Source: Cyanobium sp. AMD-g
GTDB lineage: Bacteria; Cyanobacteriota; Cyanobacteriia; PCC-6307; Cyanobiaceae
DNA length: 64,000 bases
Reading direction: 5' to 3'
NCBI RefSeq assembly: GCF_024346395.1
Contig: NZ_JAGQCW010000007.1
Location: forward strand, 1 to 64,000
Below are positions 2,153 through 39,512 of the stretch, piece by piece; within the stretch, counting starts at the first letter, position 1, and every line of letters begins with the position of its first letter. A program made the translations under genes and the position numbers. Below the pieces are notes generated by a model. That model worked only from the letters and a program-made list of their open reading frames with translations, was not told the origin of the DNA and ran no database searches.

Positions 2153-2238
2153 GTCGGGCTCTTGATCGGGGTGCGGCGGGGGACCGGGGGGAAAGCCGGC
2201 ATGGTCTAACCAAGGTACGCGCCAGGGGAGGCCTCCCT

Positions 2239-12901: not shown

Positions 12902-13226
12902 AGGGGGTGCGCCGCACGATCCACTCCTCGATCGGCACCCCGCCGATGACGTGCTCATGCACGATCCGTTCGATCCGCTCCGGGGTGACGCCCCCGTAGG
13001 TGATCCCCTCCGGCCAGAGGAGCAGCACCGGGCCCTCACAGCAGACGCGCAGACAGTCGGCCTTGGTGCGCAGCACCACCCCCTGGGGGCGGCCGGGATC
13101 CTCCAGCCCCAGCTCCCGCACCAGCTGCTTGAGCCGGTTCCAGCTGGCCGCACCGACGGCCGGATCGCCGCAGAGCGCCTTGGTGGGGGTGGCGCAGAGC
13201 AGCAGGTGGTGCTGGACGCCGCTCAC
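12876..13226 (-). CDS. Thioredoxin-like [2Fe-2S] ferredoxin
   Basis: 116 residues from the GTG at 13226, which overlaps the dxr stop as GTGA; a longer frame runs into dxr and is less likely. The pattern of C11, C19 and then C58, C62, C63 ([20 protein letters not shown]) is that of the thioredoxin-like 2Fe-2S ferredoxins related to the NuoE/HoxE fold. These are small cytoplasmic electron carriers. Translational coupling to dxr hints at co-expression with the isoprenoid pathway, whose late enzymes need ferredoxin, but a direct link is inference. Confidence 0.85.
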
Positions 13227-14473: not shown

Positions 14474-14565
14474 AGGCTGGCCCCAGCAGGATGGACGGCG
14501 TTCCAGTGTCCCATCTCCGGACGCCGATGACGCTGGCTTAACTGGGGCGACACCGAACCGCTTTC

Positions 14566-14787
14566 ATGTCTTGGTTGCAGCGCTGGAACTTCATCGAGCG
14601 GGCCCGGATCGAGCGCCAGCTCTGGGAGGCTTTCGAGCGTCGTGAGGACCTCGAGGTGCTGGTGGAGGAGTGCCGCGCCGCGGTGGCGGCCGGCGATCGC
14701 GAGCGGGCCTTCCAGCTGGAGGTGTGGCAGACCACCCTGCAGCGGATCCGCAAGATCGAGGCGTTGATGGCCGGCAAGCAGCCCTGA
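14566..14787 (+). CDS. Small helical hypothetical protein
   Basis: 73 residues, almost entirely charged helix (FIERARIERQLWEAFERRED, VEECRAAVAAGDRERAF). It looks like a coiled-coil or helical hairpin and has no signal or membrane segment. No family is recognised. It stands at the left border of the glycosyltransferase region, convergent with the GT9 gene. Confidence 0.6.
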   Translation: MSWLQRWNFIERARIERQLWEAFERREDLEVLVEECRAAVAAGDRERAFQLEVWQTTLQRIRKIEALMAGKQP

Positions 14788-14799
14788 GCCGGAGGCTCC

Positions 14800-15948
14800 T
14801 CAGGAGCGCCGGCTGCCCTGCTGCCAGGCCTGCTGCACCAGGGGCCACACCGCCTCGGGCGGCAGCCCGTCCATGCAGGCGTGACGCTCCAGGGGGCAGG
14901 CGGGGTTCTCGAAGCGCACCTGGAGGCAGCCGCCGCAGCGCTGCCGGCTGCGGCTGACCCAGACATGGTCGGCCCGGGGGGCCCAGAGATCCCGGGGGCT
15001 GGCACCGATGCCGTCGGCGTCGGTGCCGAACAGGGCCACGGTGGGGCAACCGGCGGCCGCGGCCAGATGCAGCGGGCCGGAATCGATGGCGATGCAGAGC
15101 CGGCTGCGGGCCAGGGCCCCCACCAGCACCGGCAGGCTGAGCCGCCCGCGCAGGTCCCGCAGGCCGGCGCGGGCCAGCAGGGCCCGCTCGAGCCGGTCGC
15201 CGGACTGGCGCGGCTCCGCGGGGGGAGGGCCGCCGATCAGGCCGATGGCCCCGGCCGCCAGGCCCATCTCCCGTCGCAGGCGCTCCAGCAGGGCCAGCCA
15301 GTTCTGCAGCGGCCAGAGCTTGGCGGCACGCTCACCGTTCACGGCGATCAGCACCGGCGGCAGCCCAGGCGGTGCGGGCTCCCAGGGGAGTTCCACCCGT
15401 TCGAAGTCGGTGTCCACCCAGGCGACGCGGCAGTGCAGTTCGCGGATGCTGTTGCTGGCGATCCAGCCGCCGTAGCGCTCCACCAGGGTGGGACTGGCCC
15501 AGTGGGGATCGAGGGCCAGAGCCTGCAGGGGGTGGTCGCCGGGCGGGATCGGCGCCGCTCCGACCACGAAGCGGGGTGCCAGGGCCCTGGCCCAGGCGGC
15601 GGTGTGGGGGGCGTGGCCGTCGGCGTTGATGACCAGATCCACCCCGTCGTTCTGGCTCCGGTCCGCCAGGGTTCGCCGCCACTGCGCCAGGGCCGGCAGG
15701 GCCGCCGGGCCCTGCTCCGCCAGGGGAAGGCTGGCGTCGATCCAGGGATTGAGCCACTCCAGCTCCCGGGTGCGCTGGCTGCCCACGTAGGTGATCAGGG
15801 CGTCGGGATACTTGCAGCGCAGCCCCCGCAGCAGCGGCTGGAGCACCACATAGTTGCCCAGCTTGGCGGCCCCGAGCACCACGATCCGGGGCCGTGGGCC
15901 GAGATCCTCGTCCTGGAACCGGCGCATCAGGCGGGGCAGGGTGTTCAT
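14800..15948 (-). CDS. Glycosyltransferase family 9 (heptosyltransferase-like)
   Basis: 382 residues from the ATG at 15948, which overlaps the upstream gene stop as ATGA. The GT9 two-lobed GT-B fold is indicated by RIVVLGAAKLGNYVVLQPLLRGL at the start, INGE-type AVNGERAAKLW in the middle and LCIAIDSGPLHLAAAAGCPTVALFG near the C-terminus. A cysteine-rich C-terminal segment (CGGCLQVRFENPACPLERHAC) is common in this family. Such enzymes transfer sugars from nucleotide donors onto glycans or surface molecules. It is the third gene of an apparent operon that begins with the RTX-like protein. Confidence 0.88.
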   Translation of the reverse strand: MNTLPRLMRRFQDEDLGPRPRIVVLGAAKLGNYVVLQPLLRGLRCKYPDALITYVGSQRTRELEWLNPWIDASLPLAEQGPAALPALAQWRRTLADRSQNDGVDLVINADGHAPHTAAWARALAPRFVVGAAPIPPGDHPLQALALDPHWASPTLVERYGGWIASNSIRELHCRVAWVDTDFERVELPWEPAPPGLPPVLIAVNGERAAKLWPLQNWLALLERLRREMGLAAGAIGLIGGPPPAEPRQSGDRLERALLARAGLRDLRGRLSLPVLVGALARSRLCIAIDSGPLHLAAAAGCPTVALFGTDADGIGASPRDLWAPRADHVWVSRSRQRCGGCLQVRFENPACPLERHACMDGLPPEAVWPLVQQAWQQGSRRS

Positions 15949-16988
15949 GGCCGCCCGGAGCCGACGGGGCCGACCGGATCGGCCGTCGGGGGAGGGGCCG
16001 GCTCCAGCATCCACTGGCTCAGCCAGCGGCGCATCCAGGTGCCGCGATGGGGATGCTCCAGCCGCCGTCGGCTGTGCAGCCAGAGGCTGTTGAGCAGGAA
16101 GGTGGTGCGGTTGCAGGCCTCCAGTCGGGGGTCACTGGCGATGGTGGCGCTGGTCGTGGGGTTGGCCCGCAGCTGCAGGCTCTGGAGGTCGTCAGGGGTG
16201 ATCCATTCGACGGAGTCGCTGGCGCGCAGGCGCTCGGCGTAGTCGATGTCCTCGCAATAGGCCGGGTGGAAGTTGGCATCGAAGAGGCCCACCCGATCCC
16301 AGACGGCCGGGGTGATGGCGAAGGCGGAGAACTCCTGGGGGGACGGCAGCAGCGGCAGGAACTGGGGACGGGATGGGTCGACCCGCTCGATCAGCCGGGC
16401 CAGGACTCCTGGCGCGAACACCACATCGTTGTTGACCAGCAGGGCGAAGGGCGCCTCGGGAAAGGCCGTGAGGATCGCGTTCCAGCTGGAGGCGACACCC
16501 TGGTTGGAGAACGGCCGGGCCACCCGCACCTGGCCGATGCCAGCGGGCGGCTCCCGCTCCAGCTGGGCCAGCAGCCGGCCGAGGGCCGCACTGTCGCGGA
16601 GGCCGGAGGCGATGCTGTTGTCGACAATGGCGAGCGTCTCGACGGGGTGGTCGAGGCTGTCGAGCAGACGCAGCAGCAGATCGGGCCGGTTGAGGATCGG
16701 AACGCCCAGAAGCGGGATGGCGGTCGGCGTGGATGTTCGGGGGCAGACCCCATCCAGCTGCCGCCAGAAGTCGTCCACCGGGGTGCGATCGCCGCTGAGG
16801 GAGGCGTACTGGGCCAGGCAGCCCCAGAGGTCGGGATTGGTGAGCTCGCCGCGGCAGGGGGACGACGGCAGCGTGGAGAAATAGGTCCTGGTCCAGAGAT
16901 GAAGGAGGGACTTGGCTGCCGCCATGTCCCCCTTCTGGAGGCAGGTGATGTAGTTACGGGCGAAGCGGGTCTGTTCCAAGCGGGCCAC
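15945..16988 (-). CDS. Glycosyltransferase family 2
   Basis: 347 residues. After a helical N-terminal segment of about 90 residues, the GT-A domain begins at IPLLGVPILNRPDLL and carries NNDVVF, the DxD-like metal/sugar-nucleotide site, and HPAYCEDIDYAERLR, which resembles the ED acceptor-side motif. It probably adds sugar to a cell-surface or secreted acceptor. It lies 15 bp after the RTX-like gene and overlaps the GT9 gene by 4 nt, so the three are likely one transcript. Confidence 0.88.
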   Translation of the reverse strand: MARLEQTRFARNYITCLQKGDMAAAKSLLHLWTRTYFSTLPSSPCRGELTNPDLWGCLAQYASLSGDRTPVDDFWRQLDGVCPRTSTPTAIPLLGVPILNRPDLLLRLLDSLDHPVETLAIVDNSIASGLRDSAALGRLLAQLEREPPAGIGQVRVARPFSNQGVASSWNAILTAFPEAPFALLVNNDVVFAPGVLARLIERVDPSRPQFLPLLPSPQEFSAFAITPAVWDRVGLFDANFHPAYCEDIDYAERLRASDSVEWITPDDLQSLQLRANPTTSATIASDPRLEACNRTTFLLNSLWLHSRRRLEHPHRGTWMRRWLSQWMLEPAPPPTADPVGPVGSGRP

Positions 16989-17003
16989 CGGTGGCTGGGG
17001 TCA

Positions 17004-17771
17004 TCAGCCGAAGGTGATGGAGTCGCCCTGGGTGGAGATGAAGGCCGTCTGGCTGGTATCGAAGGTGTATTCCTCACCGCCGATGATGAGTAGATCGCCG
17101 TCGCCGGCGCCGAAGATCTGGGTGCCGTTGCCGAGATCTCCTCTGGTGTTGAAGAAGACCTGGTCGACGGCGGCATCGTTTTCGCCGAGGTTGATCCAGG
17201 TGTCCTTCACCTTGGCAGAGAAGTCAAGGATGTCTGCCCCTTGGCCAAGCATGATGGTGGAATCGCTGACCTTGCCCCCGAAGATCAGGGTGTCATCGCC
17301 GGAGCCGGTGCTGATCCGTACCGAATCAGCCTTGCCTGTGATGGTGTAGCTGTCGGCCCCAGCGCCGGAGGTCATGGTGGTGTTCTTGAGGGCACCGGTG
17401 ATGGCGGTGTTGTCACCACTGCCAAGGGAAATGGTGCCCCTGGTGATGTCGGTTGCGATCAGGGTGTCGTCGCCAGCACCTGTGCTGATGGACGTATTCC
17501 GTGTATTGCCCGTGAAGGTGACGGTGTTGTCGTCGGCGTTGCCGGCGTAGGAAATGTCCTTGGAGGCTCCAGAGAACGTGGTGCGCGTGTCACCAGTGGT
17601 GGACTCCTTGATGCCCACATCCTCGATGCTCCGGCCCTTGTTGGGGAAGACGCGGGTGTTGACCGTGTCAGCGCTGAGGCTGGTGAGAACCCTGGCGCCG
17701 GAGGTGGTGGTCTGGGTGATCGTCTCGCCCGAATTCGGCACGAAGATCGAAAGGGTATCGGAGGAAGCCAT
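17004..17771 (-). CDS. Acidic RTX-like repeat protein, candidate type I secretion substrate
   Basis: 255 residues from the ATG at 17771 (a TTG ten codons upstream is less likely). There is no N-terminal signal peptide and no cysteine. From about residue 80 the protein is built of turns of roughly 20 residues containing STGAGDDTLI, SLGSGDN, TSGAGADSY, STGSGDDTLIF and LGQGADILDF. These are RTX-type calcium-binding glycine/aspartate repeats that form a parallel beta-roll. Such proteins leave the cell through type I exporters using a C-terminal signal, here the hydrophobic/Thr-rich tail. An ABC/HlyD exporter is 4 kb away, and two glycosyltransferases follow in the same operon. Confidence 0.75.
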   Translation of the reverse strand: MASSDTLSIFVPNSGETITQTTTSGARVLTSLSADTVNTRVFPNKGRSIEDVGIKESTTGDTRTTFSGASKDISYAGNADDNTVTFTGNTRNTSISTGAGDDTLIATDITRGTISLGSGDNTAITGALKNTTMTSGAGADSYTITGKADSVRISTGSGDDTLIFGGKVSDSTIMLGQGADILDFSAKVKDTWINLGENDAAVDQVFFNTRGDLGNGTQIFGAGDGDLLIIGGEEYTFDTSQTAFISTQGDSITFG

Positions 17772-17999: not shown

Positions 18000-19364
18000 A
18001 TGCCAGTGCTTTCCGGTCATTCCGATTTCGAGCAGGTCCTTCAGGAAGTGAGGCAGGCGGAGCGCCGGCAGGAATGGCGTGAAGCCGCCTGCATGTACCA
18101 GGAGCTGATTGGGGCGCATGCTGCAGATGGGCCGTTGATCCTGCGTGCCGCCAATGCCCTCTGGCTCTCGGATCAGCCGGAGGAGGCCCTGGTGCTCTAC
18201 CGGCGGGCCTCTTTGCTGGTGCCGTCCAGCCCCGCCCCCCTCATGGGCCTCGGCAACTGCCTGCGGGATCTCAACCGCTTTGAGGCGGCCGATCGTGCCT
18301 TCCGGGCCAGCCGCCAGTTGCTGGACGGCCCAGAGGTGGCCTGCAACCATGCCTCGGTGCTGATCGGCCTGGAGGCCTACGGGGAGGCCTACGCCCTGGC
18401 GGAGCGCCGGTTCGAACTGTCCAGCCACGCCCCCGGACCGGAGGGAGGGGTGGCGGCTGTGGTGGCCGCGGCACGGCGACTGCACGTTCGCACCGAACAG
18501 GGCCTGGGCGATGGCCTGCAGTACCTGCGCTGGATTCCCCCTTTGATGGAGCAGGCCGCGGTACGGGGCCAGAGGGTGGTACTGGAGGTGGAGCCGTCGC
18601 TGGTGGCCCTGTTGCAGGTGGGGCTGGCCTGGTTGTCCCAGCCGCCAGAGGTGCGGGCCCGACCCGAACCCGACGCAGACGGCGCCGGGGATTCCACTGG
18701 CCGGAACCTGGTGAGCCTGCTGTCGCTGCCGGCGGCCCTGGGCGGCGCCCCATGCCCCCAGCCCCCGGGGCCGGATGGGCAGGGCACCTATCTGCGGGAC
18801 CTGGACCCCGCCGCCTGCGCTGATGGCTACGGCCGGCCACCGCGGATCGGGCTCACCTGGGCCAGCGGCCGCAAGCTCAGCGATGGCTTCACCTGTCGGG
18901 AATACCGCAAGCGCAGCCTGCCGGCCGCCGCCCTGGTGCGACTGGTGCAGGGGGTGGTGGCCCTGGGATGCGAGCCGGTGTTGCTGCAGCAGGGGGAGGA
19001 CCGCCAGCTGGCGGAGCCGGTGGGTGATCTGTTCGGCGGGGCCATCGACCCAACCGGTGATTTCCTCGCCACGGCCCGGGTGCTGGCCGGCACCGACCTG
19101 GTGATCACGGTGGACACGGCCATGGCCCACCTGGCTGGCGCGATGGGCCATCCGGCCTGGGTGCTGCTGCCCTTCAGCGCCGATCCCCGCTGGCTGAGGC
19201 AGCGGCACGACAGCCCCTGGTACCCGAGTCTGCGCCTGTTCCGCCAGGCCGACGACCGGGACTGGCGGCTGGTGGTGGAGACGGTGCTGCAGGCCCTTCA
19301 GCGCAGCAGGCGCAGGCTGCGGATCAGGGCTTCGAAGGCCTCGGCGGCCCGGTTCACCTCGTAG
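18000..19364 (+). CDS. TPR protein with GT9-like C-terminal domain
   Basis: 454 residues from the ATG at 18000; a TTG six codons upstream is possible. The first 150 or so residues are TPR-like helical repeats (NALWLSDQPEEALVLYRRAS, GLGNCLRDLNRFEAADRAFR). The C-terminal half is GT-B like: RIGLTWASGRK, then TDLVITVDTAMAHLAGAMGHPAWVLLPF and RHDSPWYPSLRLFRQ. This TPR-plus-GT9 layout is common in bacterial protein- or glycan-glycosylation loci. The last 67 nt overlap the 3' end of the convergent GT4 gene. Confidence 0.85.
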   Translation: MPVLSGHSDFEQVLQEVRQAERRQEWREAACMYQELIGAHAADGPLILRAANALWLSDQPEEALVLYRRASLLVPSSPAPLMGLGNCLRDLNRFEAADRAFRASRQLLDGPEVACNHASVLIGLEAYGEAYALAERRFELSSHAPGPEGGVAAVVAAARRLHVRTEQGLGDGLQYLRWIPPLMEQAAVRGQRVVLEVEPSLVALLQVGLAWLSQPPEVRARPEPDADGAGDSTGRNLVSLLSLPAALGGAPCPQPPGPDGQGTYLRDLDPAACADGYGRPPRIGLTWASGRKLSDGFTCREYRKRSLPAAALVRLVQGVVALGCEPVLLQQGEDRQLAEPVGDLFGGAIDPTGDFLATARVLAGTDLVITVDTAMAHLAGAMGHPAWVLLPFSADPRWLRQRHDSPWYPSLRLFRQADDRDWRLVVETVLQALQRSRRRLRIRASKASAARFTS

Positions 19365-20497
19365 CGGGCGGCGACGGTGACGCGGCCGGCGTCGGCCATG
19401 GCGGCGAAGGCGGGTGGGTCGGCCAGCACCGCCAGCAGGGTTTCGGCCAGGCGGTCGGTGTCGCTGAAGGGCACCAGCAGCCCGTTGTGGCCGTGCTGGA
19501 TCACCTCGTCCAGCGGCGGGTTGTCGGAGCCCACCACCAGCGCGCCGGAGGCCATCGCCTCCAGCAGGCTCCAGGAAAGGGCGTAGGGATAGGACAGGTG
19601 GACGTGGGCGGCGCTGATGCGGAACAGGGCCAGCAGCTCGCGGTGCGGCAGGGGCGGCAGGAAATGGACACGCTCCAGGGGCAGCCGGTGGCCGAGCAGG
19701 GCCAGCAGTTCGCCCTTGTGGCCCTCGGGGTGGGAGGAAGGGGCGCCGTAGCCGCTGCCGCTGCCCCCCACGATCACGGCCCGGGCGTCCGGCCGGGCGG
19801 CGAGCACGGCCGGCAGGGCCCGCAGGACGCTGCGGAAGCCCCGCAGGGGTTCAAGGTTGCGGCTGGCAAAGGTGATCACCGGATCCCCCTTCACCAGGGT
19901 GGGGCCGCCCTCCAGCCGCAGGCGGGTGCTCCCGGTGGCGGCGGGCGGCAGGGCGAGGCCTTCGTGCAGCACATGGAATCGGCTGCGCAGGTGGGGGGGG
20001 AAGGTGTCGCGGGCAAAGCGGGTGGGCACCACGCAGGCGTCGGCGTCGGCGATCGCCGCCAGGCCCATCAGGTTGCCGCGGCGCCACTGGGCCCGCAGGG
20101 CGGGGGAGGGTTCACCCAGGTCGGCATCGAAGCCATAGCCGAGCAGCAGCGGGGCGGCATAGAGCTCGGGGTAGGCGATCAGCACTGCCTCGGGCCAGAT
20201 GTCGCGCAGGTAAAGACATTCCCCCCAGCCGCTGTGGGCGAGCACGGCCTGCGGGCGGTAGCCCTGCCCACGCAGCTGCAGGCAGCGCTCCTGGACGCGC
20301 CCGGCCCGGTGCAGGTTGGTCTCCAGCAGCGGATCCACCAACCCCGCCGGCAGGGCCGGCGGCCGCCAGGCGTAGTCGAGCCGCTGGCCGCGGGGGGTGG
20401 CACCCAGACCGAGGACGCGGTGGCCGCGGCGTTCAAGGGCGGGGGTCAGATCACGAAACTGGCCGGGATGGTTCTGATGGATCAGCAACAGTTCCAT
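19298..20497 (-). CDS. Glycosyltransferase family 4
   Basis: 399 residues. The N-terminal lobe starts MELLLIHQNHPGQFRDL, typical of one GT4 subgroup. The donor-binding lobe has VITFASRNLEPLRGFRSVLRAL, VHFLPPLPHRELLALF and the EX7E-like SWSLLEAMASGALVVGSDNPPLDEVI. This is a retaining GT-B enzyme that uses a nucleotide-activated sugar. It is transcribed leftward and its stop region overlaps the TPR/GT9-like gene. Confidence 0.9.
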   Translation of the reverse strand: MELLLIHQNHPGQFRDLTPALERRGHRVLGLGATPRGQRLDYAWRPPALPAGLVDPLLETNLHRAGRVQERCLQLRGQGYRPQAVLAHSGWGECLYLRDIWPEAVLIAYPELYAAPLLLGYGFDADLGEPSPALRAQWRRGNLMGLAAIADADACVVPTRFARDTFPPHLRSRFHVLHEGLALPPAATGSTRLRLEGGPTLVKGDPVITFASRNLEPLRGFRSVLRALPAVLAARPDARAVIVGGSGSGYGAPSSHPEGHKGELLALLGHRLPLERVHFLPPLPHRELLALFRISAAHVHLSYPYALSWSLLEAMASGALVVGSDNPPLDEVIQHGHNGLLVPFSDTDRLAETLLAVLADPPAFAAMADAGRVTVAARYEVNRAAEAFEALIRSLRLLR

Positions 20498-20542: not shown

Positions 20543-21658
20543 ATGTCGCTCTGGAGCCGTCTGTTCGGACGTCGGGATACGGTGAGCTGGGGTGAAAAAA
20601 AGCTGCAGAAAGATAGTGGCCTTCTGGATACTCTGGTGAGTGATCCTGGTACCGTCCCGATGGAGATGGATCGCCTGCCACAGATCACCCCCTGGTCGGC
20701 GGCGAGGCTGGGCGCGATCTTCATGGATTTCGCCCACGAAGCCACCCCCACCCGGCTGGCGGAGGCCCGGCTGGCACGCCAGTGCCTGTCGAAGTTCTGG
20801 TTGAGTGCGCCGATCGATGCGCTGGAACTTCTCTATGGCTCGGCGGTGGGCCAGAGCTATCGCCAGATGATCGGAACTGAGCTGGCCTCCCAGCCCCTGC
20901 TGCGCGATGAAGAGAGCTGGAGAGACCATCTCTCCGAGCGGCTCCAGAGCGGCTTCGATCGGCCGGAAATGGCCAATGTGCTGTTGGCGGCAATGCCCTA
21001 TTTCCGCCGCGGCAAGATGAAAGTGCGTAACTGCGAACAGAATCTTCCCGATTGGTTGCTTGAGGACTACGCCAGCCTGTTCGAACCGGAACTGCTGCCG
21101 CGGTTGCGCCAGCCCAGCCCGCTGCAGCGCCGGGCGCTGGCACCGGCGGGTGCGGTGAAGGCGGTGGGGCCAGTGGCGACCGAGGCCGACCTGCCGCCGT
21201 TGCCCCAGCTCTCCGCTTTCAGCGGCGCCCAGGCCCTGCAGCTCACCGGCAGCGAGGAGTTCCTCACCCGCCTCAACGGGCTTGTGAATCTGTTCGAGAT
21301 CGATCCGGACGACGGCGCCATCCTCCAGGAACTGGGCAGCTTCCGTCGCCAGCTGGGCCAGATCTGGCTGGACACCCCTGAGGAGCGACTGCAGCCCCTG
21401 TTTGAGAGCCCCTTCGGCGATCTCTACCGCAAGTTCCTGCGCAGCGGCTACGCCGGCACGCCCCTGGCGGAGGAGGACCGCCAACTGCGGTCCCAGCTGG
21501 CCCACTACGTGCGCAACATGACCCGCCCCAAGGCCACCCAGGTGGTGCTGGCGGTGCTGCCCTTCTTCCCCCCCGGCAAGATCGGCTTCGCCGGCGGTGA
21601 GCAGTTCATGCCCCAGTGGCTGCTGGGGGCCCTGCCCAGCCTCTATGTGAAGAGCTGA
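20543..21658 (+). CDS. Internally duplicated protein of unknown function
   Basis: 371 residues from the ATG at 20543. Two copies of a domain of about 110 residues are visible, one near residues 70-185 and one near 250-371. Each has the pattern CLSKFWLSAPIDALELLYGS / QLGQIWLDTPEERLQPLFES, then G-x-x-YR/YRK, a charged helix, VLLAAMPYFRRGKMK / VLAVLPFFPPGKIG and PDWLLEDYASLF / PQWLLGALPSLY. A Pro/Ala linker joins them. There is no signal peptide or membrane helix. I recognise no named family. It lies between a GT4 gene and the end of the type I secretion operon, so a role in the secretion/glycosylation locus is plausible but unproven. Confidence 0.8.
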   Translation: MSLWSRLFGRRDTVSWGEKKLQKDSGLLDTLVSDPGTVPMEMDRLPQITPWSAARLGAIFMDFAHEATPTRLAEARLARQCLSKFWLSAPIDALELLYGSAVGQSYRQMIGTELASQPLLRDEESWRDHLSERLQSGFDRPEMANVLLAAMPYFRRGKMKVRNCEQNLPDWLLEDYASLFEPELLPRLRQPSPLQRRALAPAGAVKAVGPVATEADLPPLPQLSAFSGAQALQLTGSEEFLTRLNGLVNLFEIDPDDGAILQELGSFRRQLGQIWLDTPEERLQPLFESPFGDLYRKFLRSGYAGTPLAEEDRQLRSQLAHYVRNMTRPKATQVVLAVLPFFPPGKIGFAGGEQFMPQWLLGALPSLYVKS

Positions 21659-21686: not shown

Positions 21687-21962
21687 TCACTCGTGGAACT
21701 CCTTCCACAGCAGCCAGTAGGTGAGGTAGCCGAGCAGGGGCAGCAGGACCATCGGGGCCAGGGCGAACAGGGTCACCACCGGCGGCAGGTGCAGCACCAG
21801 CCAAAGCAGCACCAGGCCATAGGCGAGGAAGGCCAGGGTGATGCCCACCCAGCGCTGGCGCAGGCGCTCGTTGAGCCGCAACCGCCAGGCCTTGAAACGG
21901 CGGCGGCGGCGTTGCTCGGGCGGCACGAAGCGCCACCAGTCGCCCTGGGGTCGGAGGCTCAC
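21687..21962 (-). CDS. Small two-helix membrane protein of the secretion operon
   Basis: 91 residues from the GTG at 21962, which overlaps the HlyD stop as GTGA. A basic N-terminal half (PEQRRRRRFKAWRLRLNERL) is followed by two hydrophobic helices (about residues 40-58 and 61-83) ending WLLWKEFHE. It is a cytoplasmic-membrane protein with a strongly basic cytoplasmic side. No family is recognised. Its place as the last gene of a translationally coupled exporter operon suggests an accessory role. Confidence 0.75.
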   Translation of the reverse strand: MSLRPQGDWWRFVPPEQRRRRRFKAWRLRLNERLRQRWVGITLAFLAYGLVLLWLVLHLPPVVTLFALAPMVLLPLLGYLTYWLLWKEFHE

Positions 21963-23479
21963 TGGGACCGTAGACGCTGGAGGTTGCGGCGCTGGTCTTC
22001 GAACAGGCCGGTGAGCAGGCTGATCACGCGTCGCTCGCGCAGCTTGATGTCGGCGGTGAGGGCCATGCCGGCCTGGAGCGGCACGCTGCCCGCATCAGGC
22101 AGGGGGATGGACTGGCGACCGAGCTTGAGGATGACCGGAAAGTGGAGGCCCTCGGCCTGGGTGCCGAGCACCTGGGTCTGCTCCTCGGGGGTGAGGGCAT
22201 CGGAGCCGATGCGTTCCACCGTGGCCGGCAGGTAGCCGAAGCTGCTGGCGGGGAAGGTCTCGATCGAGAGCTCGGCGCTCTGGCCCACCTGCACGAAGCC
22301 GATGGCCTTGTTGGGCAGGTACACCTTGGCTCGCAGGGACTCCTGGGGCACCACCTTCAGCAGGGGGGTGGTGGCGTTGACACCCACCACGCTGCCGGCG
22401 CTGGCGTCGACATCGAAGACGAGGCCATCGGCGGGGGCGGTGAGCAGGCCGTACTGGATCTGGAGGCGGGCCTGGCGGATCTGGGCGTCGAGATCACTGA
22501 TCTGGCGCAGGTTGGCTTCGATCGCGGTGCGCAGCTCCACGTCAGTGCCGGATCCGGTGTTGACCAGCTGGGAGCGCAGGCGGGCGATCTCGCGCTCCTC
22601 TTCGGCCACGCTGGTGCGCAGGTCCTGCATCTTGTTGCGGGCCTCGAGCAGCTGCACCTCACTGACGGCGCCATCGCGCACCAGGGACTGGTAGCGGCGT
22701 TCGATGTCGGCGTAGATGCGCAGGGAATCGCGGTAGCCGGCCAGGCGGGTGGTGCTCTTGGCCAGTTCCTCGCGGGCGGCGTCCAGGCGGCTGCTGAGCT
22801 CACGGGCGCGGTCGCGCAGCTGGTTCTGCTGGTTGGCGGTGAGGCCGGCGGTGGCGGCCTCCTCGCCGAGGGTGACCTTGGCGACGCGGTTCTCGTTGAG
22901 CAGCCGCTCGCGGATGCTCTCGGCGGCGGCCAGCTTGCTGCGGGGTTCGCGCAGGTCGAAGCGGATCAGGGGCTGGCCCTTTCTCACCGACTGGCCCTCC
23001 TTCACCAGCACCTCCTCCACCACACCGGGGACGGGGGAAGCGACGTCCTTGACGGTGCTGGAGGGCTCGAGCTTGCCGGGCACGGCCACGGTTTCGGAGA
23101 TCGGCGCCGTGACGCTCCAGAGGCCGAGGGCGGCGACCCCGCCCAACCCAGCCCAGACCAGCAGGCTGGAGCTGCGGCGGCTCTTGCGCAGCACCACGGT
23201 GTCGCGGAACGACCATTCCTTGGCCGTTTCCGATCCGGCGGTGGTGAGGCCGCTGCCGAAGGGGTGGCTGGCCACTGCCGGGTCGGTTGGGGCCTCCGCC
23301 GGCGACGCTTCCGCCGCCGGCCCTTCGGCGGGCAGGGACCGCTGGCCCACCAGATCGAAGCGCACCGGAATCACCGGGTGGCGGCGGCGGGAGCGGGGGG
23401 AGCGCAGCCAGTCGACGCAGCCGTCGAGCAGGGACACCAGACGGGAGGCGGCATCGGAGGAACGGGGTGGGGTGGCCAT
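21959..23479 (-). CDS. HlyD-family membrane fusion protein (type I secretion adaptor)
   Basis: 506 residues from the ATG at 23479, whose A is shared with the stop of the ABC gene. The order is: a cytoplasmic N-terminus of about 100 residues, one membrane helix at about 104-125, a lipoyl-like half (VASPVPGVVEEVLVKEGQSV), long coiled-coil hairpin helices (about 190-330), the second lipoyl half and a beta-barrel domain. This is the periplasmic adaptor that links an inner-membrane ABC exporter to a TolC-type outer-membrane channel. No TolC gene is in the window. Confidence 0.93.
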   Translation of the reverse strand: MATPPRSSDAASRLVSLLDGCVDWLRSPRSRRRHPVIPVRFDLVGQRSLPAEGPAAEASPAEAPTDPAVASHPFGSGLTTAGSETAKEWSFRDTVVLRKSRRSSSLLVWAGLGGVAALGLWSVTAPISETVAVPGKLEPSSTVKDVASPVPGVVEEVLVKEGQSVRKGQPLIRFDLREPRSKLAAAESIRERLLNENRVAKVTLGEEAATAGLTANQQNQLRDRARELSSRLDAAREELAKSTTRLAGYRDSLRIYADIERRYQSLVRDGAVSEVQLLEARNKMQDLRTSVAEEEREIARLRSQLVNTGSGTDVELRTAIEANLRQISDLDAQIRQARLQIQYGLLTAPADGLVFDVDASAGSVVGVNATTPLLKVVPQESLRAKVYLPNKAIGFVQVGQSAELSIETFPASSFGYLPATVERIGSDALTPEEQTQVLGTQAEGLHFPVILKLGRQSIPLPDAGSVPLQAGMALTADIKLRERRVISLLTGLFEDQRRNLQRLRSQ

Positions 23480-26430
23480 CAGCTGAGACCCTCCTGGTTC
23501 TGGCTGCGGAAGAGGGCGTAGTACCAGCCGCGCAGCTGCATCAGCTGGCGGTGGTTGCCCTGCTCCATCACGGCGCCCTTGTCCATCAGCACGATCAGGT
23601 CGGCGGGCTGGACGGTGGAGAGGCGGTGGGTGATGAAGAAGACGGTGCGGCCCCGGAAGGCCTCGAACAGGTTGATGCACACCTGGCGCTCGGTGCTGGC
23701 GTCGAGCGCGCTGGTGGCCTCATCGAGGATCAGCATCTGGGGGTTCTGGAGCACAGCCCGGGCCAGGGCTAGGCGCTGACGCTGGCCTCCCGAGAGGCCG
23801 GCGCCCCGCTCACCGACGCTGGAGTTGTAGCCCTGGGGCATCTGCATGATGAAGTCGTGGGCGCAGGCGATGCGGGCGGCGCGGATCATCTCGGCGGCGG
23901 TGGCATCGGGCTTCACCATCAGCAGGTTCTCGCGGATGGTGCCGTCGAAGAGGAGCGAATCCTGGGGCACCACCCCGATCTGGCGGCGCAGGGAATAGAG
24001 CTCCACCTTGCCGATGTCGAGGCCGTCGATCAGGACGCTGCCCCGCTCCGGCGGATAGAAGCGGGAGAGCAGCTTGAGCAGGGTGGATTTGCCGCTGCCG
24101 GAGCCCCCCACCAGCCCCACGAAGGAGCCGGCGGGGATCTCCAGATCCACCCCATCGAGCACCAGGGGGCCCTGGTCGCGGAAGCGGAAGCCCACATCGA
24201 CGAACTGCACCCGGCCTTGCAGGGGGGGCAGGGGGATGTTGCTGGCCTGCTCGCTGGTCTGCTCAGTGTCGCGGTCGACCACATCGGCCACCATGCGCAG
24301 CGACTGGGTGTTGAACTGGAAGTCCTGCCAGGTGCCCACCAGTTGCACCATGGGCTGGCGGATGTGGCCGGAGAGGATGTTGAAGGCGAACAGGGCGCCA
24401 AGGTTGAGCTTGCCCTGGATGACCAGCCAGATCGCCACGGCGATCACCACCAGCTGGCTGAGGTTGCTGAGGAAACTGGAGAGGTTGGCGATCGATTCGC
24501 GGGTCACCTTGAGCTTGAAGTCTTCGCCGATGTAGGCGGAATAGCGGTTCTGGAATTCCCAGCGGGTCTTGAGTTCGGCGTTCTGGGATTTGATCGTCTG
24601 GATGCCGGTGATGGCTTCGTTGAGGAAGCTGGAGGCGCGCACCGCCTGGGCCATGGTGCGGTTGATCTGGCTGCGCACCAGGGGATTGCTGACCAGGCCC
24701 ACGGCGGCGATCAGGGGCAGGGTGGCCAGGGTCACCAGGGTCAGCAGCGGGCTGATGGCGAAGAGGATGGCCAGGTAGATCAGGCTGAAGCCGAAATCCA
24801 CCAGGGTGGGCAGGGTCTGGCCGAGCAGGAAGTCGCGCAGGCGATCGAGCTGGGAGAAATAGAAGGTGATCTGGCCCACGGGGCGGGCATCGAAGAATCC
24901 CTGGGGCAGCCGCACCAACTGGTCGAGGATCGTGGCCTTGGCGTCCTGGTCGACGCGGTTGGCCAGGTCGGTGAACAGGAAGCTGCGCAGCGTCTTGAAG
25001 ATGCTCTCCATCAAGGTGGCGAGCAGCATCACGCTGGCGATGCTGACCAGGGCGCCGATGTTGCGACTGGCCACCACGCTCTGGATCAGCACCATCAGGC
25101 CGAGGGGGAAGACGATGCGCAGGGCGTTGATCAGCACCGAGGCCACCAGCACCTCGATCAGCTCGCGGCGGTGCTGGCGCAGGAAGGGGAAATACCAGCT
25201 CCAGCTGAAGCGCTGCTGCTTGGCATCGGGTTTGCGGTCGAAGAGCAGCAGCTCCACCAGGCCCCCCTCGTGGGTGATGAGCTCCTCGGCCGGCACCAGC
25301 AGGGCGCCGAGTTCGGCTTCCAGCAGGCGGGCGCGGCCATCGGGTTCGACGCCATCGAGCAGGCCGAAGTGGCCGTTCTGGAACAGCAGGGCCGGGGCGG
25401 GCACGCGCCCCAGGCGGCTGGCGGGCACGCGCGAGAGCACCACCCGCAGGCCGAGGGTGTCCATGATCTGGCCGATGTTGACCAGGTTGAGCTGGTCCTG
25501 GCGCTGCAGGATGGCGTCCACCTGGTCGGCGAGGGCGTCGCGGTTGAGGGGCAGGCCGAAGTAGTCAGCCAGGGCCTGGCAGAGGGCGATGGGCACGGCG
25601 CGGACACCGCTGGCCCGGCCCAGGGCCAGCTGGCCGCTGCGGTCGCCGGCGCGGCGGGGCGGTGGTTCGAGGGCGGGGGCGTAGGTGCCGCCGGCCCCCT
25701 CGGCCAGCACGGTGGGGGTGAGGAGGTCGGGGCCGAGGGTGATGGGGGGTTCGGCCTCCCGGGGCATCGCCAGGCCCACGAGCCGCAGCCAGGGGGCCTC
25801 GGGGCCGGGGCGCATCAGGGGACGGTCCGACCAGGGCTCGGCCAGGGGCAGGCCGCTGCTGGCGAACCAGCGGAAGCCCGGAGGCAGGCCCAGCTCTCCG
25901 GGCCCGCCCGGGGGCAGGCTGCGCAGGCGCACCTGCTCGGGCGGCAGGGGCCAGTCCTCGAGCAGGGCCTCGCCGTGGGGATCCCGTTGGGCCAGCGCCA
26001 GCAGCAGGGTGTGGAGCTCGGCGGCGCTGGGCTGGTTGGCGAACCAGGCGGCGAAGTCGGGATGGCCGCTCAGGAGGTCGCGGAAGGCGGCGGCGGGCAG
26101 CTGGAGGGCCTCCACTTCGGTGGTGGCGCGCAGGTGCTCGCAGGGGTCGCAGCGCAGCAGGCCGGCCCAGCCGGCTAGGGATCCGGGGCCGAGGCGCTCG
26201 ATCGTGCGCAGGCCCCGGCCGCTGGGGCTGGGGCCGAGGCTGCGCAACTGGCCGCTGCAGAGCAGCAGCACGCCCTCGGGTAAGACGTCCGGGCGCAGGA
26301 CGGTCTGGCCGAGCCGGAAGCGCAGGGGCTCCAGCAGGGAATCGATCGCGTCGCGGCGGGCGGGGGGCAGCCGGTCGAAGGGGGCGAAGTCGTTGAGCAG
26401 TCCGCTGATGGCTCCGGGGGAGGAGGTCAT
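23479..26430 (-). CDS. Type I secretion ABC exporter with cNMP-like and C39-like domains
   Basis: 983 residues from the ATG at 26430; the frame is open much further upstream but there it lies antisense-like over the PPIase gene. Residues about 10-140 resemble a cyclic-nucleotide-binding fold but lack the conserved Gly-Glu of the phosphate cassette. A C39-like domain follows (about 290-440); the catalytic Cys of the DCG motif is missing, so it should bind substrate rather than cleave it. Six membrane helices precede the ATPase: Walker A GGSGSGKST (about 775-783), signature LSGGQRQRLALARA, Walker B MLILDEATSALD and H-loop ITHRLST. The layout resembles the HetC/HlyB group. Confidence 0.93.
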   Translation of the reverse strand: MTSSPGAISGLLNDFAPFDRLPPARRDAIDSLLEPLRFRLGQTVLRPDVLPEGVLLLCSGQLRSLGPSPSGRGLRTIERLGPGSLAGWAGLLRCDPCEHLRATTEVEALQLPAAAFRDLLSGHPDFAAWFANQPSAAELHTLLLALAQRDPHGEALLEDWPLPPEQVRLRSLPPGGPGELGLPPGFRWFASSGLPLAEPWSDRPLMRPGPEAPWLRLVGLAMPREAEPPITLGPDLLTPTVLAEGAGGTYAPALEPPPRRAGDRSGQLALGRASGVRAVPIALCQALADYFGLPLNRDALADQVDAILQRQDQLNLVNIGQIMDTLGLRVVLSRVPASRLGRVPAPALLFQNGHFGLLDGVEPDGRARLLEAELGALLVPAEELITHEGGLVELLLFDRKPDAKQQRFSWSWYFPFLRQHRRELIEVLVASVLINALRIVFPLGLMVLIQSVVASRNIGALVSIASVMLLATLMESIFKTLRSFLFTDLANRVDQDAKATILDQLVRLPQGFFDARPVGQITFYFSQLDRLRDFLLGQTLPTLVDFGFSLIYLAILFAISPLLTLVTLATLPLIAAVGLVSNPLVRSQINRTMAQAVRASSFLNEAITGIQTIKSQNAELKTRWEFQNRYSAYIGEDFKLKVTRESIANLSSFLSNLSQLVVIAVAIWLVIQGKLNLGALFAFNILSGHIRQPMVQLVGTWQDFQFNTQSLRMVADVVDRDTEQTSEQASNIPLPPLQGRVQFVDVGFRFRDQGPLVLDGVDLEIPAGSFVGLVGGSGSGKSTLLKLLSRFYPPERGSVLIDGLDIGKVELYSLRRQIGVVPQDSLLFDGTIRENLLMVKPDATAAEMIRAARIACAHDFIMQMPQGYNSSVGERGAGLSGGQRQRLALARAVLQNPQMLILDEATSALDASTERQVCINLFEAFRGRTVFFITHRLSTVQPADLIVLMDKGAVMEQGNHRQLMQLRGWYYALFRSQNQEGLS

Positions 26431-27260
26431 GGGCTGTCGTCCTCCTGCAGCAGGGCGAGCATCGCGTCGAGGGGCGGCAGCGTCTGGCCTTCGAGCAGGA
26501 GCCGCGCCCGCTGCTCGAGCCATTCCTCGAAGAGTTCGCCCATCATGCGCTCCCTGGTGAGGTCGTTCAACTCGGCCGGCAGGAACTGTTCGAGCCTCAG
26601 CACCACCCAGCTCTCGCCGGCCATGAAGGGTTCGAACAGCTGGCCGGGGCGGCCACGGCGCAGGCGGCTGACCAGGCTCTCGTGGCCGGCGGCCAATGGC
26701 AGGGGGCCGATCTGGCCGCGGCAATGGCGCTCGGGGCCTTCGGAATGGAGCGGCGCCAGGGCGTCGAAATCGGCTTCGCCCTCGGCGATCTGGTGGTGCA
26801 GCTCCGCGGCGAGGTCCTCGCTGTCGACACGCAACAGGGAATAGACCACCTGGTCGAGCTCGGGTTTGCGCTGCAGGAATCGCACTTCCACCTCGTCCTC
26901 CCAGCGGCAGCGCACCAGGCGCTGCAGGCGCCGCTTCTGGGTGGCGAGGATGCGCAGGTCGTCGAAGACCAGGCCGCGCTCCTGGAGCCAGCCGGGCACC
27001 TGGTCGTCCTCGCTGATGCCCCGGCGTTCCAGGAAGGCCGCCATCAGGGCCTTCTCCTCCTCGATGGGCAGGGGAATGGCGTGCACGAGCTGGTCGAGCA
27101 CCCAGGCGCGGGCCAGGGGCCGGGCCTGGCCCTGCTGGCGGATCAGGCGGTTGAGTTCGGAGAGGGCCAGCCAGGGGCGGCCGGGGGGCAGTTCCACCAC
27201 CGCCGGCTCCGGCAGGCCGGAGAGGGGTTCGGGCAGGGTGTCGCGGGCGGTGCTCATCAT
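26427..27260 (-). CDS. Parvulin/SurA-like peptidyl-prolyl isomerase of the secretion operon
   Basis: 277 residues. The N-terminal half is helical (LSELNRLIRQQG, IPLPIEEEKALMAAFLERRG), like the chaperone part of SurA/PpiC. The C-terminal half resembles a rotamase domain: FDALAPLHSEG, GQIGPLPLA, LVSRLRRGRPGQLFEPF, SWVVLRLEQFLPAEL. No signal peptide is seen, so it may act in the cytoplasm, keeping the substrate unfolded before export. It overlaps the GT fusion upstream and the ABC gene downstream by 4 nt each. Foldases of this kind accompany cyanobacterial type I exporters. Confidence 0.82.
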   Translation of the reverse strand: MMSTARDTLPEPLSGLPEPAVVELPPGRPWLALSELNRLIRQQGQARPLARAWVLDQLVHAIPLPIEEEKALMAAFLERRGISEDDQVPGWLQERGLVFDDLRILATQKRRLQRLVRCRWEDEVEVRFLQRKPELDQVVYSLLRVDSEDLAAELHHQIAEGEADFDALAPLHSEGPERHCRGQIGPLPLAAGHESLVSRLRRGRPGQLFEPFMAGESWVVLRLEQFLPAELNDLTRERMMGELFEEWLEQRARLLLEGQTLPPLDAMLALLQEDDSP

Positions 27261-30166
27261 GCGGGCCTCCGGTGGGGCAGATCAAGGCGGGCCAGGGCAT
27301 CGGCCATCAGGGCCAGGCCGCTCTCCCGGCTCCAGGTGGCGCTGGCGTAGCCGAAGGCGGCGGCGGCCATGGCGCGCCAGGTGTCGTCGTCGTCGTTGAG
27401 CTGGAGCACGGCCTGGCACCAGTCGTCGGGGCTGCGGGCGATCAGCACCTCCTGGCCGTGGCGCAGACCGGTGGCTTCGGCGGCCAGGGGGCTGAGCACC
27501 TGGGGCAGGCCGTGGGCGGCGGCGGCCACCACCTTGCCCTTGAGGCCGGCCCCGGATCGCAGCGGCGCCACGAAGACGCGATGGCGGGCGTACACCGTGG
27601 CCGGATCGGCCACCCAGCCCTCGACGACCACGCCGGCTTCGGCACCCCAGCGGGCGGCGACGGTGGCGTCGAGACCGCTGCCGTACAGATGCAGTCGCAG
27701 CCCGGGCCGTCTCTCGAGCAGCAGGGGCCATACCTGCACCAGGAAGGCCTCGACGGCATCGCTGTTGGGGGGATGGCCGTAGCTGCCGAGGAAGGCGAGG
27801 CCGCTGCGGCCCTCAAGGGGGGCGGGAGCTTCCGGGCCGTGCACCACCCAGGGGCAAGCGGCGGTGGCGGCCTCGCCGAGGGTTTCGGCCTCGATCACCG
27901 CCCGCTCCACCTCCGAATAGCTGAAGGTGAGATCCACCTGGCGCATCACCGCCAGCTCCTGCTGCTTGACCTCTTCCACCGCTTCAAAGGCGCGGCGGCC
28001 CTCTTCGCCCTCCAGACCCTCGGCACGGGCGGCACGCAGCTGGCGCAGGTGGTGCAGGTCGGCGTTGCAGAACAGCAGCCGGGCCTGGGGGGCGTAGCGG
28101 TGGATCAGGGGCAGGGCCTCGGCGGCCACCGTGTAGCGGGTGAGATAGATCAGATCGAACTCCCGGCCCCGTTCGCTCAGAAAGGCTTCCAGGGAGAGCA
28201 CGAAGGGGGCGTGGATGAGCTCGATGCCGCGGCGCTGGAGCGCCTCGCTGTAGCTGGCCAGCCAGGCCAGGTTGAGGGGCAGCAGGGTCACCTTCCAGCC
28301 CAGCTCCTGGAGCAGCTCCATCTCCACCAGGGCGGCATGGCTGCCGGCATCGCGGTCGGGCCGAGGGGTTTCCTGATCGAGGCAGAGAACGCGCCCAACG
28401 ATGCCGCGGTCCTTGATGGTTTCGGCGGCGGCGTGGTCGGGCTCGCGGCTGCCCTCGAAGGCGGCGGCCCACTTCTGCTGGAAAACGGGGCCGTGGACCG
28501 CCTGGAAGCGCTTCAGCCCGCTGGTGGCCTGGGTGTCGGTGCCGCAGCTGAGGCCCTCGTGGTGGATCACCCGGGCCAGGGGGCTGTAGCGCACGGTGTG
28601 GCCGGCCTGGCGCACCTTGAAGGCCAGGTCGGTGTCCTCGTAGTAGGCGGGGGAGAACTCCGGGCTGAAGCCACCGAGCCGCTTCCAGAGTTCGAGGGGG
28701 ATGGCGAGGGCGGCGGCGCTGACGTAGTCCACCTGGCGGGTGTAGGCGAAACGGGGGTCGTGGGGGTTGCCGCCGCGGCCGTAGTTCCAGGGTTCGCCGT
28801 TGCCCCAGACGATGCCGCCCGCCTCCTGCAGGCTGCCGTCGGGGTAGATCAGCTGGGCTCCCACCATGCCGGTGTCGGCCCAGCGCTGGAAGGGATCGAG
28901 CAGCTCCTCCAGCCAGGCGGCGCAGGGTTCGGTGTCGTTGTTGAGCAGCACCAGAAAGGGGGCGCGGGCGGCGGCGGCACCGCTGCAGCAGGCCTGGTTG
29001 AAGCCGCGGGCGAAGTCGTGGCGGATGACGCGCACCCCGGGGGCCTCGGCGGCCAGGGCCTCCGCCGTGCCGTCGCTGGAGCCGTCGTCGACGACCAGCA
29101 CCTCGAACGGAACACGGGTGGGGGCGTAGGCGATCGCCGCCAGGCAGCGGCGGGTGACGCCGTACTGGTTGTGCACCGGGATCACGATCGACACCAGCGG
29201 ATCGGCCGCGATCGGCAGCTGCAGGGGCTGGCGCGGCACGGCGCCGCCGTCGGGGCCGGGTTCCTGGTTTGACGCGCCGCGGGGCAGGGGGTGTTCGAGC
29301 AGGCGCTGCAGCAGGGGCAGGTCAGGGGGCAGGGGGGTGCCATCGCTGTCGGCCCAGGCCAGCCAGGTGCGCAGGCTGCGGTAGCGCTCCCGGGCCAGGG
29401 GCGAAAGCTCGTCGGGGAAGGGGGGACGGGCGTGCCGCTGCAGGGCGGCCCAGGGGGTCAGGTGGAAGGGGAGCAGCTCGAAGCGCTGATCCAGCACCAG
29501 GCCGGAGCCGGTTTCCAGCTGCAGATGGTGCACGGCACCGTCGGCCAGGCCGGTTGGGAGCAGCTGCTGGAAGGGCCAGGTCCCTTCCGGCGGGGGCTCG
29601 GGGGGGGCGATCGGCAGGGTGGTGTGGCCGTCGAGGCGCAGCAGCAGGGGCTCGGTACCGCGGCCCCAGCCGTGCAGCAGGGGCGTCTGCAGCTGGGTGA
29701 GGGCGCCTTCGCGGATGGGACCGTGCTGACGCTGATGCTCGATCCGGGCGTGGGTGCCGGCATCGAGCCGCATGGGACTGCCGGCCAGTTCCGTGCCGCT
29801 CCCTTTGACCAGCACCCGCAGCACCAGCCCCTGGGAGTAGGCGGGCAGGGGATGGCTGGGGCCCCACCAGAAGCGGAAGCCGCAGGGCTGCTCGATGCCC
29901 AGCGCCAGAAGATCAGGCCGGGCCTGGGCCGCCATCAGTTCGGCGACCAGCTGGTGCTGGCCGGGGTCGAGCAGGTCGTCGAGCACCAGCTGCAGGCGCA
30001 GTGGCGCGGCCTGGGGCTGCAGGGGCCAGGGGCAGGCCCAGCCGCCCAGGCCGCCCTGCGGGCTCCAACCTTCGAGCCGGCCCACCAGGCCGCGGCGACG
30101 CCATTCGGCGAGGGAGGCGGTGGGGGTTTCCAGGGTGCCGGGCGGCTCGGCGAGCATCGCAGCCAT
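27257..30166 (-). CDS. Large GT2-GT4 fusion glycosyltransferase
   Basis: 969 residues. The first 320 or so residues have no recognised family and contain beta-rich stretches (LRLQLVLDDLLDPGQ, TEPLLLRLDGHTTLPI), perhaps a carbohydrate-binding module. A GT2 domain follows from about 323: VSIVIPVHNQYG, VDDGSSDGTAEALA, LLNNDTEP (the DxD-like site) and YYEDTDLAFKVRQAGH. The last 350 residues are GT4-like: LAFLGSYGHPPNSDAVEAF, VAPLRSGAGLKGKVVAAAAHG. It is the first gene of the five-gene secretion operon and so probably builds the glycan of the exported product. Confidence 0.9.
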   Translation of the reverse strand: MAAMLAEPPGTLETPTASLAEWRRRGLVGRLEGWSPQGGLGGWACPWPLQPQAAPLRLQLVLDDLLDPGQHQLVAELMAAQARPDLLALGIEQPCGFRFWWGPSHPLPAYSQGLVLRVLVKGSGTELAGSPMRLDAGTHARIEHQRQHGPIREGALTQLQTPLLHGWGRGTEPLLLRLDGHTTLPIAPPEPPPEGTWPFQQLLPTGLADGAVHHLQLETGSGLVLDQRFELLPFHLTPWAALQRHARPPFPDELSPLARERYRSLRTWLAWADSDGTPLPPDLPLLQRLLEHPLPRGASNQEPGPDGGAVPRQPLQLPIAADPLVSIVIPVHNQYGVTRRCLAAIAYAPTRVPFEVLVVDDGSSDGTAEALAAEAPGVRVIRHDFARGFNQACCSGAAAARAPFLVLLNNDTEPCAAWLEELLDPFQRWADTGMVGAQLIYPDGSLQEAGGIVWGNGEPWNYGRGGNPHDPRFAYTRQVDYVSAAALAIPLELWKRLGGFSPEFSPAYYEDTDLAFKVRQAGHTVRYSPLARVIHHEGLSCGTDTQATSGLKRFQAVHGPVFQQKWAAAFEGSREPDHAAAETIKDRGIVGRVLCLDQETPRPDRDAGSHAALVEMELLQELGWKVTLLPLNLAWLASYSEALQRRGIELIHAPFVLSLEAFLSERGREFDLIYLTRYTVAAEALPLIHRYAPQARLLFCNADLHHLRQLRAARAEGLEGEEGRRAFEAVEEVKQQELAVMRQVDLTFSYSEVERAVIEAETLGEAATAACPWVVHGPEAPAPLEGRSGLAFLGSYGHPPNSDAVEAFLVQVWPLLLERRPGLRLHLYGSGLDATVAARWGAEAGVVVEGWVADPATVYARHRVFVAPLRSGAGLKGKVVAAAAHGLPQVLSPLAAEATGLRHGQEVLIARSPDDWCQAVLQLNDDDDTWRAMAAAAFGYASATWSRESGLALMADALARLDLPHRRPA

Positions 30167-39045: not shown

Positions 39046-39512
39046 CGGAACCTGCGCGGTTGGGTGGCGACAGCAGAATGGCTCCCCCATGCCATCCGTG
39101 GAGGCATGGTGCCGCTACACCTGGGTGGTTCAATCGTCGCCGTCATGGACGTCTGTCAATGCAGAGATGAACAGGACAAACACTCTCTCTAGGGCTTGTC
39201 ATCAGGTTTGTGCCTTCTGCGAGGATGATGCCCTTGCCAGAAGGGCTACTCCGGGTTGTTTTGGCGGTCGGGTCACTGAAGAGATCCTGTTGCCCATCAG
39301 CGTGCTGTCGGCGTGGCTGAACATCTGCCAGATCATTCCGTGGCCATGTCTGGTGATGCCATTTTCCTGCCTGTATATCTCCATCCGATCATGCTATGTA
39401 CGGGTGCGATTGGCTTCTGGTGAGTTGGCTGTACAGGCACTGAACAGTGGCTGTGGGCTGCTCGTGAGAGTGCCAGCTCCATGGACCAACGCCCTTGTGG
39501 GTTCTGCTTCGT
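39046..39512. other. 467-bp intergenic region without a recognisable gene
   Basis: Open frames here are short, cysteine- or arginine-biased and unlike any family. One perfect inverted repeat with 7-nt arms lies at 39087-39109 (ccatgcc...ggcatgg, 9-nt loop), with no T-run on either side, so it is not a classical terminator. A weaker one (ccttctg...cagaagg) lies at 39213-39244. Composition changes from AT-richer to GC-rich across the gap, so the right border of the acquired block probably falls here. Confidence 0.5.

Follow-up and report, generated by a model that had tools for sequence, protein, structure and literature searches.

A duplicated helical domain beside a cyanobacterial type I secretion system has relatives inside GT41- and GT4-type glycosyltransferases

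The protein described here contains a genuine duplicated domain that is strongly associated with glycosyltransferases (GTs) of the protein-modifying kind and with type I secretion. We call this protein DIDOM (P0001); its gene lies at 20543–21658 of the window, by which we mean the whole 64,000-nucleotide stretch of Cyanobium sp. AMD-g DNA that was analysed. DIDOM probably assists in glycosylating a surface protein ahead of export, a reading put forward because the same domain is built into sugar-attaching enzymes of other cyanobacteria. Stated in full, DIDOM would be an accessory subunit, itself non-catalytic, in a cytoplasmic module that glycosylates a protein destined for export by the neighbouring type I secretion system (T1SS), and to this we assign a probability of about 0.5. 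The gene and its parts are given below in window coordinates.

20543..21658, + strand: two-domain protein DIDOM, 371 aa (open reading frame, codon G+C, orthologue start)
20543..20686, + strand: N-terminal tail, residues 1–48, with a hydrophobic and basic start; predicted disordered, missing from short-type proteins
20687..21094, + strand: domain copy A, residues 49–184 (alignments, AlphaFold model)
21095..21247, + strand: linker, residues 185–235 (pLDDT below 50 for residues 191–216)
21248..21655, + strand: domain copy B, residues 236–371 (alignments, AlphaFold model)

The open reading frame looks like a real coding gene, because its G+C by codon position (0.68/0.46/0.83) fits the coding pattern at such G+C; the ATG at 20543 is also the start kept in close orthologues from the same genus. 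Named relatives at 90–95% identity include Synechococcus sp. CS-1332, an Aphanothece saxicola MAG, and Cyanobium strains, among others. One further copy of the gene (L126, 1158–1924, genome G256) is broken across more than one frame—perhaps a pseudogene, perhaps a sequencing error.

The initial annotation had proposed that the protein consists of two related copies of one domain, each of which we find to be about 136 residues long, and the comparisons bear this out. As single sequences the copies align at 62 bits in blastp, with 33 of 102 residues identical, and the self-alignment suggested in that annotation gives a Smith-Waterman score of 152, whereas none of 2000 shuffles exceeded 52. When alignments of orthologues are compared (hhalign), A and B match with a probability of 99.7, an E-value of 3.8e-26, and a score of 150; the highest score in 60 column-permuted controls was 22.5, and a reversed alignment scored 12.9. 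All four motifs that had been picked out (W-L, Y-R, P-x-F-x-x-GK, and W-L-L) are present in both copies, as WLSAPIDAL/WLDTPEERL, YR/YR, PYFRRGK/PFFPPGK, and WLLEDYASL/WLLGALPSL (copy A/copy B). The limits first assigned, residues 70–185 and 250–371, are slightly too narrow; we set them at 49–184 and 236–371. The view that the first copy has diverged has to be given up: among 26 long-type proteins (one genome counted twice, L072 being L110) identity averages 0.50 over pairs of A copies and 0.45 over pairs of B copies, and A is the more similar in 259 of 325 pairs. Both copies are conserved in long-type proteins, A slightly more so, and copy A is not a decaying copy.

No match to P0001 was found in Pfam or NCBIfam at E≤1, so the domain is unrecognised in these databases, as was first noted; it does, however, have relatives inside GT41 and GT4-type glycosyltransferases. 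At the same threshold Pfam yields no GT41 domain (PF13844), no other GT domain, and no TPR or other repeat in DIDOM. HMW1C_N (PF18071) is likewise absent from P0001 at E≤1 and from six relatives at E≤5; a PF18071 scan of 96 cyanobacterial genomes gave no match even in the control genomes and carries no information. A profile of 26 domain copies (A1), searched against PDB sequences at E≤10, retrieved four chance-level chains, none of them HMW1C-like. Phages searched with P0001 gave no match, a viral structure library held nothing confident for the DIDOM domain, and, on plasmids, the tandem copies were matched in Acaryochloris only. An Azospirillum plasmid GT41 protein (L140) was considered as a carrier of the domain and rejected, as it has no detectable copy.

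Structure prediction, also suggested at the outset, returned well-predicted helical domains but no confident counterpart in the PDB. The AlphaFold2 model of the whole protein (22 orthologues; mean pLDDT 76.8, pTM 0.45) consists of two such domains, a partly disordered linker, and a disordered N-terminus, and the AlphaFold model of domain B on its own (37 copies; pLDDT 89.9, pTM 0.86) is all helices. Foldseek gave no PDB match at E≤0.001 for the whole protein or the single domain, and the best VIA-align Z-scores (6.3 and 6.1, respectively) are to generic helical structures and possibly reflect just a common arrangement. The fold matches of the DIDOM model are weak, HEAT/ARM-like and other helical ones; no HMW1C chain is among the best 50 matches of each Foldseek or VIA-align search.

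The relatives of the domain in GT41 and GT4-type enzymes point to glycosylation rather than to export as such. With P0001 alone as query, relatives were found in 23 of 60 genomes; profile A1 at E≤1e-5 detects the domain in 44 of the 388 genomes of the class, 14 in the window's family and 30 outside it. Within the family the domain occurs as the stand-alone two-copy protein. Outside it we examined 20 domain-bearing ORFs (16 loci, 14 of the 30 genomes): 14 carry GT41 (PF13844), three a GT4-type domain, one a sugar-methyltransferase-like domain, and two nothing recognised. The N-terminal copy ends 250–261 residues ahead of the C-terminal GT41 half in 14 of 14 GT41 proteins, and this fixed distance makes it a built-in component of the enzymes. 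Seven of the 14 have two to four extra copies behind the catalytic part; the 14 proteins are 627–2797 aa long, and GT2, GT4, and methyltransferase modules are frequent in them. Two of the ORFs, L086 2754–10979 (2742 aa) and L091 1837–10227 (2797 aa), each combine methyltransferase, GT2, GT4, GT41, and the new domain in a single frame, and are apparent glycan-assembly megaenzymes. At another locus (L032) two ORFs 11 kb apart, 1409–3109 and 12609–17198, share the second half of one domain copy letter for letter, which suggests recent recombination or gene conversion.

Profile searches place the DIDOM domain in the same family as the GT41-linked domain: a seed of P0001 A and B plus four L021 copies matches GT41-linked copies outside that seed with i-E values of 1.1e-17 (L023) and 1.9e-22 (L024). 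The hhalign comparison of A1 with P0005 (probability 99.5, E 4e-23) is not independent, the P0005 copy being a row of A1. The catalytic part of one domain-GT41 protein is related by sequence to O-GlcNAc transferases and SPINDLY; its relationship to HMW1C-like enzymes is weaker (3q3e, E 6.5e-05). In a FastTree phylogeny of 111 copies, the 32 A copies group without exception in a clade of their own (support 0.873), as do the 26 long-type B copies (0.996), the six short-type B copies (1.0), and 15 N-terminal fusion copies (0.885), 14 of which come from GT41 proteins and one from the GT4-type protein L032:1409. Copies A and long-type B group together without short-type B (0.806), and the stand-alone DIDOM copies lie apart from the N-terminal enzyme clade, together with tail copies and those from GT4-type or GT-less proteins. 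Both A and B are maintained in the long and the short types.

The placement of the gene within a secretion locus, as initially described, is correct: genes for HlyD, HlyB, and a peptidyl-prolyl isomerase (PPIase) come after DIDOM. The neighbouring genes are as follows.

14800..15948, − strand: GT9 glycosyltransferase (Pfam)
15945..16988, − strand: weakly GT2-like protein (under Pfam cut-off)
17004..17771, − strand: Ser/Thr-rich repeat protein, candidate exported substrate; resembles RTX-like ORFs of related loci
18000..19364, + strand: TPR and GT9-like protein (both Pfam matches under curated cut-offs)
19298..20497, − strand: GT4 glycosyltransferase (PF12000 + PF00534), divergent neighbour of DIDOM, 45 bp away
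21687..21962, − strand: small protein, 91 aa; no family above its cut-off
21959..23479, − strand: HlyD-type membrane fusion protein (TIGR01843, PF13437)
23479..26430, − strand: HlyB-type T1SS ABC transporter with N-terminal cNMP-binding domain (TIGR01846, PF00664, PF00005)
26427..27260, − strand: PPIC-type peptidyl-prolyl isomerase
27257..30157, − strand: GT2-GT4 fusion glycosyltransferase, 966 aa
34388..35461, − strand: GT61 glycosyltransferase, same region
36556..39090, − strand: exostosin/GT47-like glycosyltransferase, 844 aa, same region

The HlyB assignment combines TIGR01846 (E 3e-178, under its curated cut-off) with PF00664 and PF00005, both above cut-off; that of HlyD combines TIGR01843 (E 1.7e-57, under its curated cut-off) with PF13437, above cut-off. 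Much of the gene order in the window—GT9, GT2-like, Ser/Thr-rich, TPR-GT9-like, GT4, DIDOM, small protein, HlyD, HlyB, PPIase, GT2-GT4—is seen again in relatives. GT41 is absent from the window locus, and the one GT41 gene detected in the genome lies on another contig. Some further genes were observed in passing. Homologues of the exostosin/GT47-like gene recur in four related loci (L037, L113, L117, L119); glycosyltransferases of this type are known mainly from eukaryotes. A DUF6880 protein (32922–34262, + strand; Pfam E 1.6e-134) adjoins the secretion and glycosylation region. The last ~60 residues encoded at 43135–43638 (+ strand) look like a HicA-type small RNase toxin, possibly with a HicB-like partner nearby.

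Co-occurrence with the exporter genes, another of the checks first suggested, proved strong. DIDOM is present in 38 of 151 family genomes. Cognate HlyB genes, scoring above 1000 bits, number 22 and occur in 21 of the 151 (the next score is 748); all 22 have DIDOM within 2.7 kb, in 21 of 21 genomes, and none without DIDOM was found in the 151. The genome with two such HlyB genes also has two DIDOM genes. Genome G365 (L073, L074) carries the DIDOM-HlyD-HlyB-PPIase module twice. An HlyB-like gene sits 10–13 kb away on the same contig in 12 of the 17 remaining DIDOM genomes, and for five of the 38 (G527, G449, G454, G461, G475; three partial matches, one 4.9-kb contig, and one other) no HlyB is listed on the DIDOM contig.

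The linkage extends to the GT4 gene. A GT4 homologue lies within 350 bp of DIDOM in 23 of 27 named loci and in 19 of 21 family loci, both types included, and an HlyB homologue is present in 24 of 27 and 20 of 21; the two sets overlap in at least two genomes (L072/L110 and L083/L097, identified by contig). The GT4 misses are one contig end (L104) and five loci with none in the flanks (L073, L074, L108, L116, L118), and the HlyB misses are three contig ends (L121, L122, L135) and L116—neither gene is found in the ~7–8 kb flanks of L116. Short-type DIDOM proteins lack the N-terminal tail, and their genes are co-directional with the GT4 gene across a gap of 13–54 bp. In the two short-type loci read ORF by ORF (L125, L130) an RTX-like ORF and two GT41-like ORFs sit between DIDOM-GT4 and PPIase-HlyB-HlyD, in ~16 kb that also holds a TPR-GT9-like gene. 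Pfam confirms these contents in L125, with GT41 in both ORFs (3.9e-34 and 2.5e-31) together with TPR matches, and PF00353 in the RTX-like ORF (3e-06); in L130 they are assigned by resemblance. An impression that short-type loci lack a T1SS was false and came from stretches of about ±10 kb, the T1SS sitting 10–13 kb away. The RTX-like gene of L125 (4236–6990) runs in two overlapping frames and is a single ORF in L123 and L130; an assembly frameshift is possibly the cause.

The candidate substrates are rich in Ser and Thr: together these make up 24–28% of four such proteins, against 9% in the called genes of the window. The window protein (17004–17771) has no Pfam match at E≤0.1, RTX repeats (PF00353) included. 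It contains 3 N-X-S/T sequons against 3.4 in shuffles, and three related candidates lie somewhat above their shuffles (L125, 13 vs 8.5; L130, 14 vs 10.9; L123, 21 vs 13.9). We dropped an argument for O-linkage from a lack of sequon enrichment, as these three exceed their shuffles.

Outside the family the tie to export is looser. In family f34 the domain gene lies less than 3 kb from HlyB (E≤1e-100) in all four domain-bearing genomes, and the one locus of this family that was read (L094) has a GT4-GT2-domain-GT41 protein followed by PPIase and HlyB. No HlyB at that threshold is near the domain in 26 of the 30 non-family genomes, though contig breaks may hide some; thus the domain does not always come with export, and it is associated more widely with glycosyltransferases than with secretion. 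This bears on the best-surviving alternative, in which DIDOM would serve the T1SS substrate as a dedicated chaperone or pilot, preventing it from folding and delivering it to HlyB, while glycosylation would be left to other proteins and the nearby GTs would serve elsewhere. The tight linkage to HlyB, HlyD, and PPIase agrees with such a role, and a PPIase neighbour suits substrate handling. Many long-type proteins also begin with a hydrophobic and basic stretch that could conceivably form a membrane-tethering helix, for which the amphipathic signal is weak (mean percentile 0.74 relative to shuffles, 26 long-type proteins). We consider a pure chaperone unlikely: besides the many genomes with the domain and no nearby T1SS, 17 of the 20 non-family ORFs fuse it to GT41 or GT4-type domains.

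A second alternative keeps the glycosyltransferases and discards the glycoprotein: DIDOM would scaffold GTs that make a surface polysaccharide (exopolysaccharide or lipopolysaccharide), and the adjoining T1SS would be incidental. The abundance of GT2, GT4, GT9, GT61, and GT47-like genes in the window region fits this proposal, as do the large proteins (up to 2797 aa) of other cyanobacteria in which the domain is fused to several GTs and methyltransferases. We regard it as less probable again than a chaperone, since the solved relatives of the GT41 part (OGT, SPINDLY, HMW1C) are protein-modifying enzymes and since the absence of any HlyB above 1000 bits without DIDOM from the 151 family genomes is unexpected under incidental linkage. 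That DIDOM is instead a regulatory or structural protein of unrelated function travelling with the island is improbable: although it has no predicted activity and its model is a generic helical bundle with weak matches, the arrangement is kept in two locus types, with GT4 adjacent at the frequencies given above for the overlapping sets, and the domain is repeatedly fused to GTs.

We return to the favoured reading, DIDOM as an accessory subunit in protein glycosylation. DIDOM would be located in the cytoplasm and, as their adjacency suggests, act together with the partner GT4. Most likely it would bind the unfolded Ser/Thr-rich RTX-like polypeptide, hold GT4 on it, or both; acceptor binding or enzyme scaffolding is suggested by the place of the domain in GT41 enzymes. 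The module would thereby glycosylate its substrate, with the Ser/Thr-rich RTX-like protein as the putative acceptor. Sugars would be added before export through HlyB/HlyD, and gene linkage suggests that the modified protein would leave by the T1SS.

Several known systems offer points of comparison. The cyanobacterial GT41 proteins (such as L086 and L094) have the same domain by profile at a fixed distance from the catalytic domain, whereas DIDOM has no catalytic domain. HMW1C-like N-glycosyltransferases (ApHMW1C, 3q3e; AaNGT, 8p0o) also have a helical region ahead of a GT41-type catalytic domain; excerpts of the literature describe these enzymes as soluble and as modifying a large secreted adhesin (PMC10507012, PMC3983070, PMC2877744), and for AaNGT an excerpt reports that the all-alpha domain recognises the acceptor peptide (PMC10507012). 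By position alone, the N-terminal copy in the GT41 enzymes might be equated with the HMW1C all-alpha domain; the same position would, by analogy, also be that of the TPR region in O-GlcNAc transferases. Between HMW1C-like enzymes and the DIDOM domain, sequence searches detect no match and fold searches no confident one, and the former belong to two-partner secretion, whereas the DIDOM locus has type I secretion. O-GlcNAc transferase and SPINDLY have a catalytic domain homologous to that of the fusion proteins, whereas DIDOM has no TPR or GT match at E≤1. As a type, the DIDOM pathway would resemble that of HMW1, where a secreted adhesin is the target of a glycosyltransferase (PMC2877744 and PMC3983070, in excerpt); it would differ in its secretion machinery and in having an accessory subunit absent from Pfam/NCBIfam. 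The cyanobacterial RTX-type surface proteins SwmA and oscillin are reported as glycosylated in an excerpt of PMC3034196. Among the titles and abstract openings listed from open-licence papers, none gave an account of the domain or of cyanobacterial T1SS-coupled glycosylation.

A more specific version of events is tentative and, on balance, doubtful: the acceptor-recognition domain of a glycosyltransferase may have turned into a subunit in its own right, with two domains and acting in trans with GT4, RTX-like proteins being glycosylated in the cytoplasm and then exported by a dedicated T1SS. If true, this would amount to an HMW1-like pathway built on type I secretion, and might explain how RTX proteins of cyanobacteria come to be glycosylated. 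The domain, absent from Pfam/NCBIfam, marks a recurring picocyanobacterial gene module and connects glycosyltransferases of the protein-modifying GT41 kind with type I secretion. If our reading of DIDOM holds, the module would give genetic access to the production of glycosylated surface proteins in cyanobacteria, and would supply a testable case of a glycosyltransferase substrate-reading domain working as a separate subunit.
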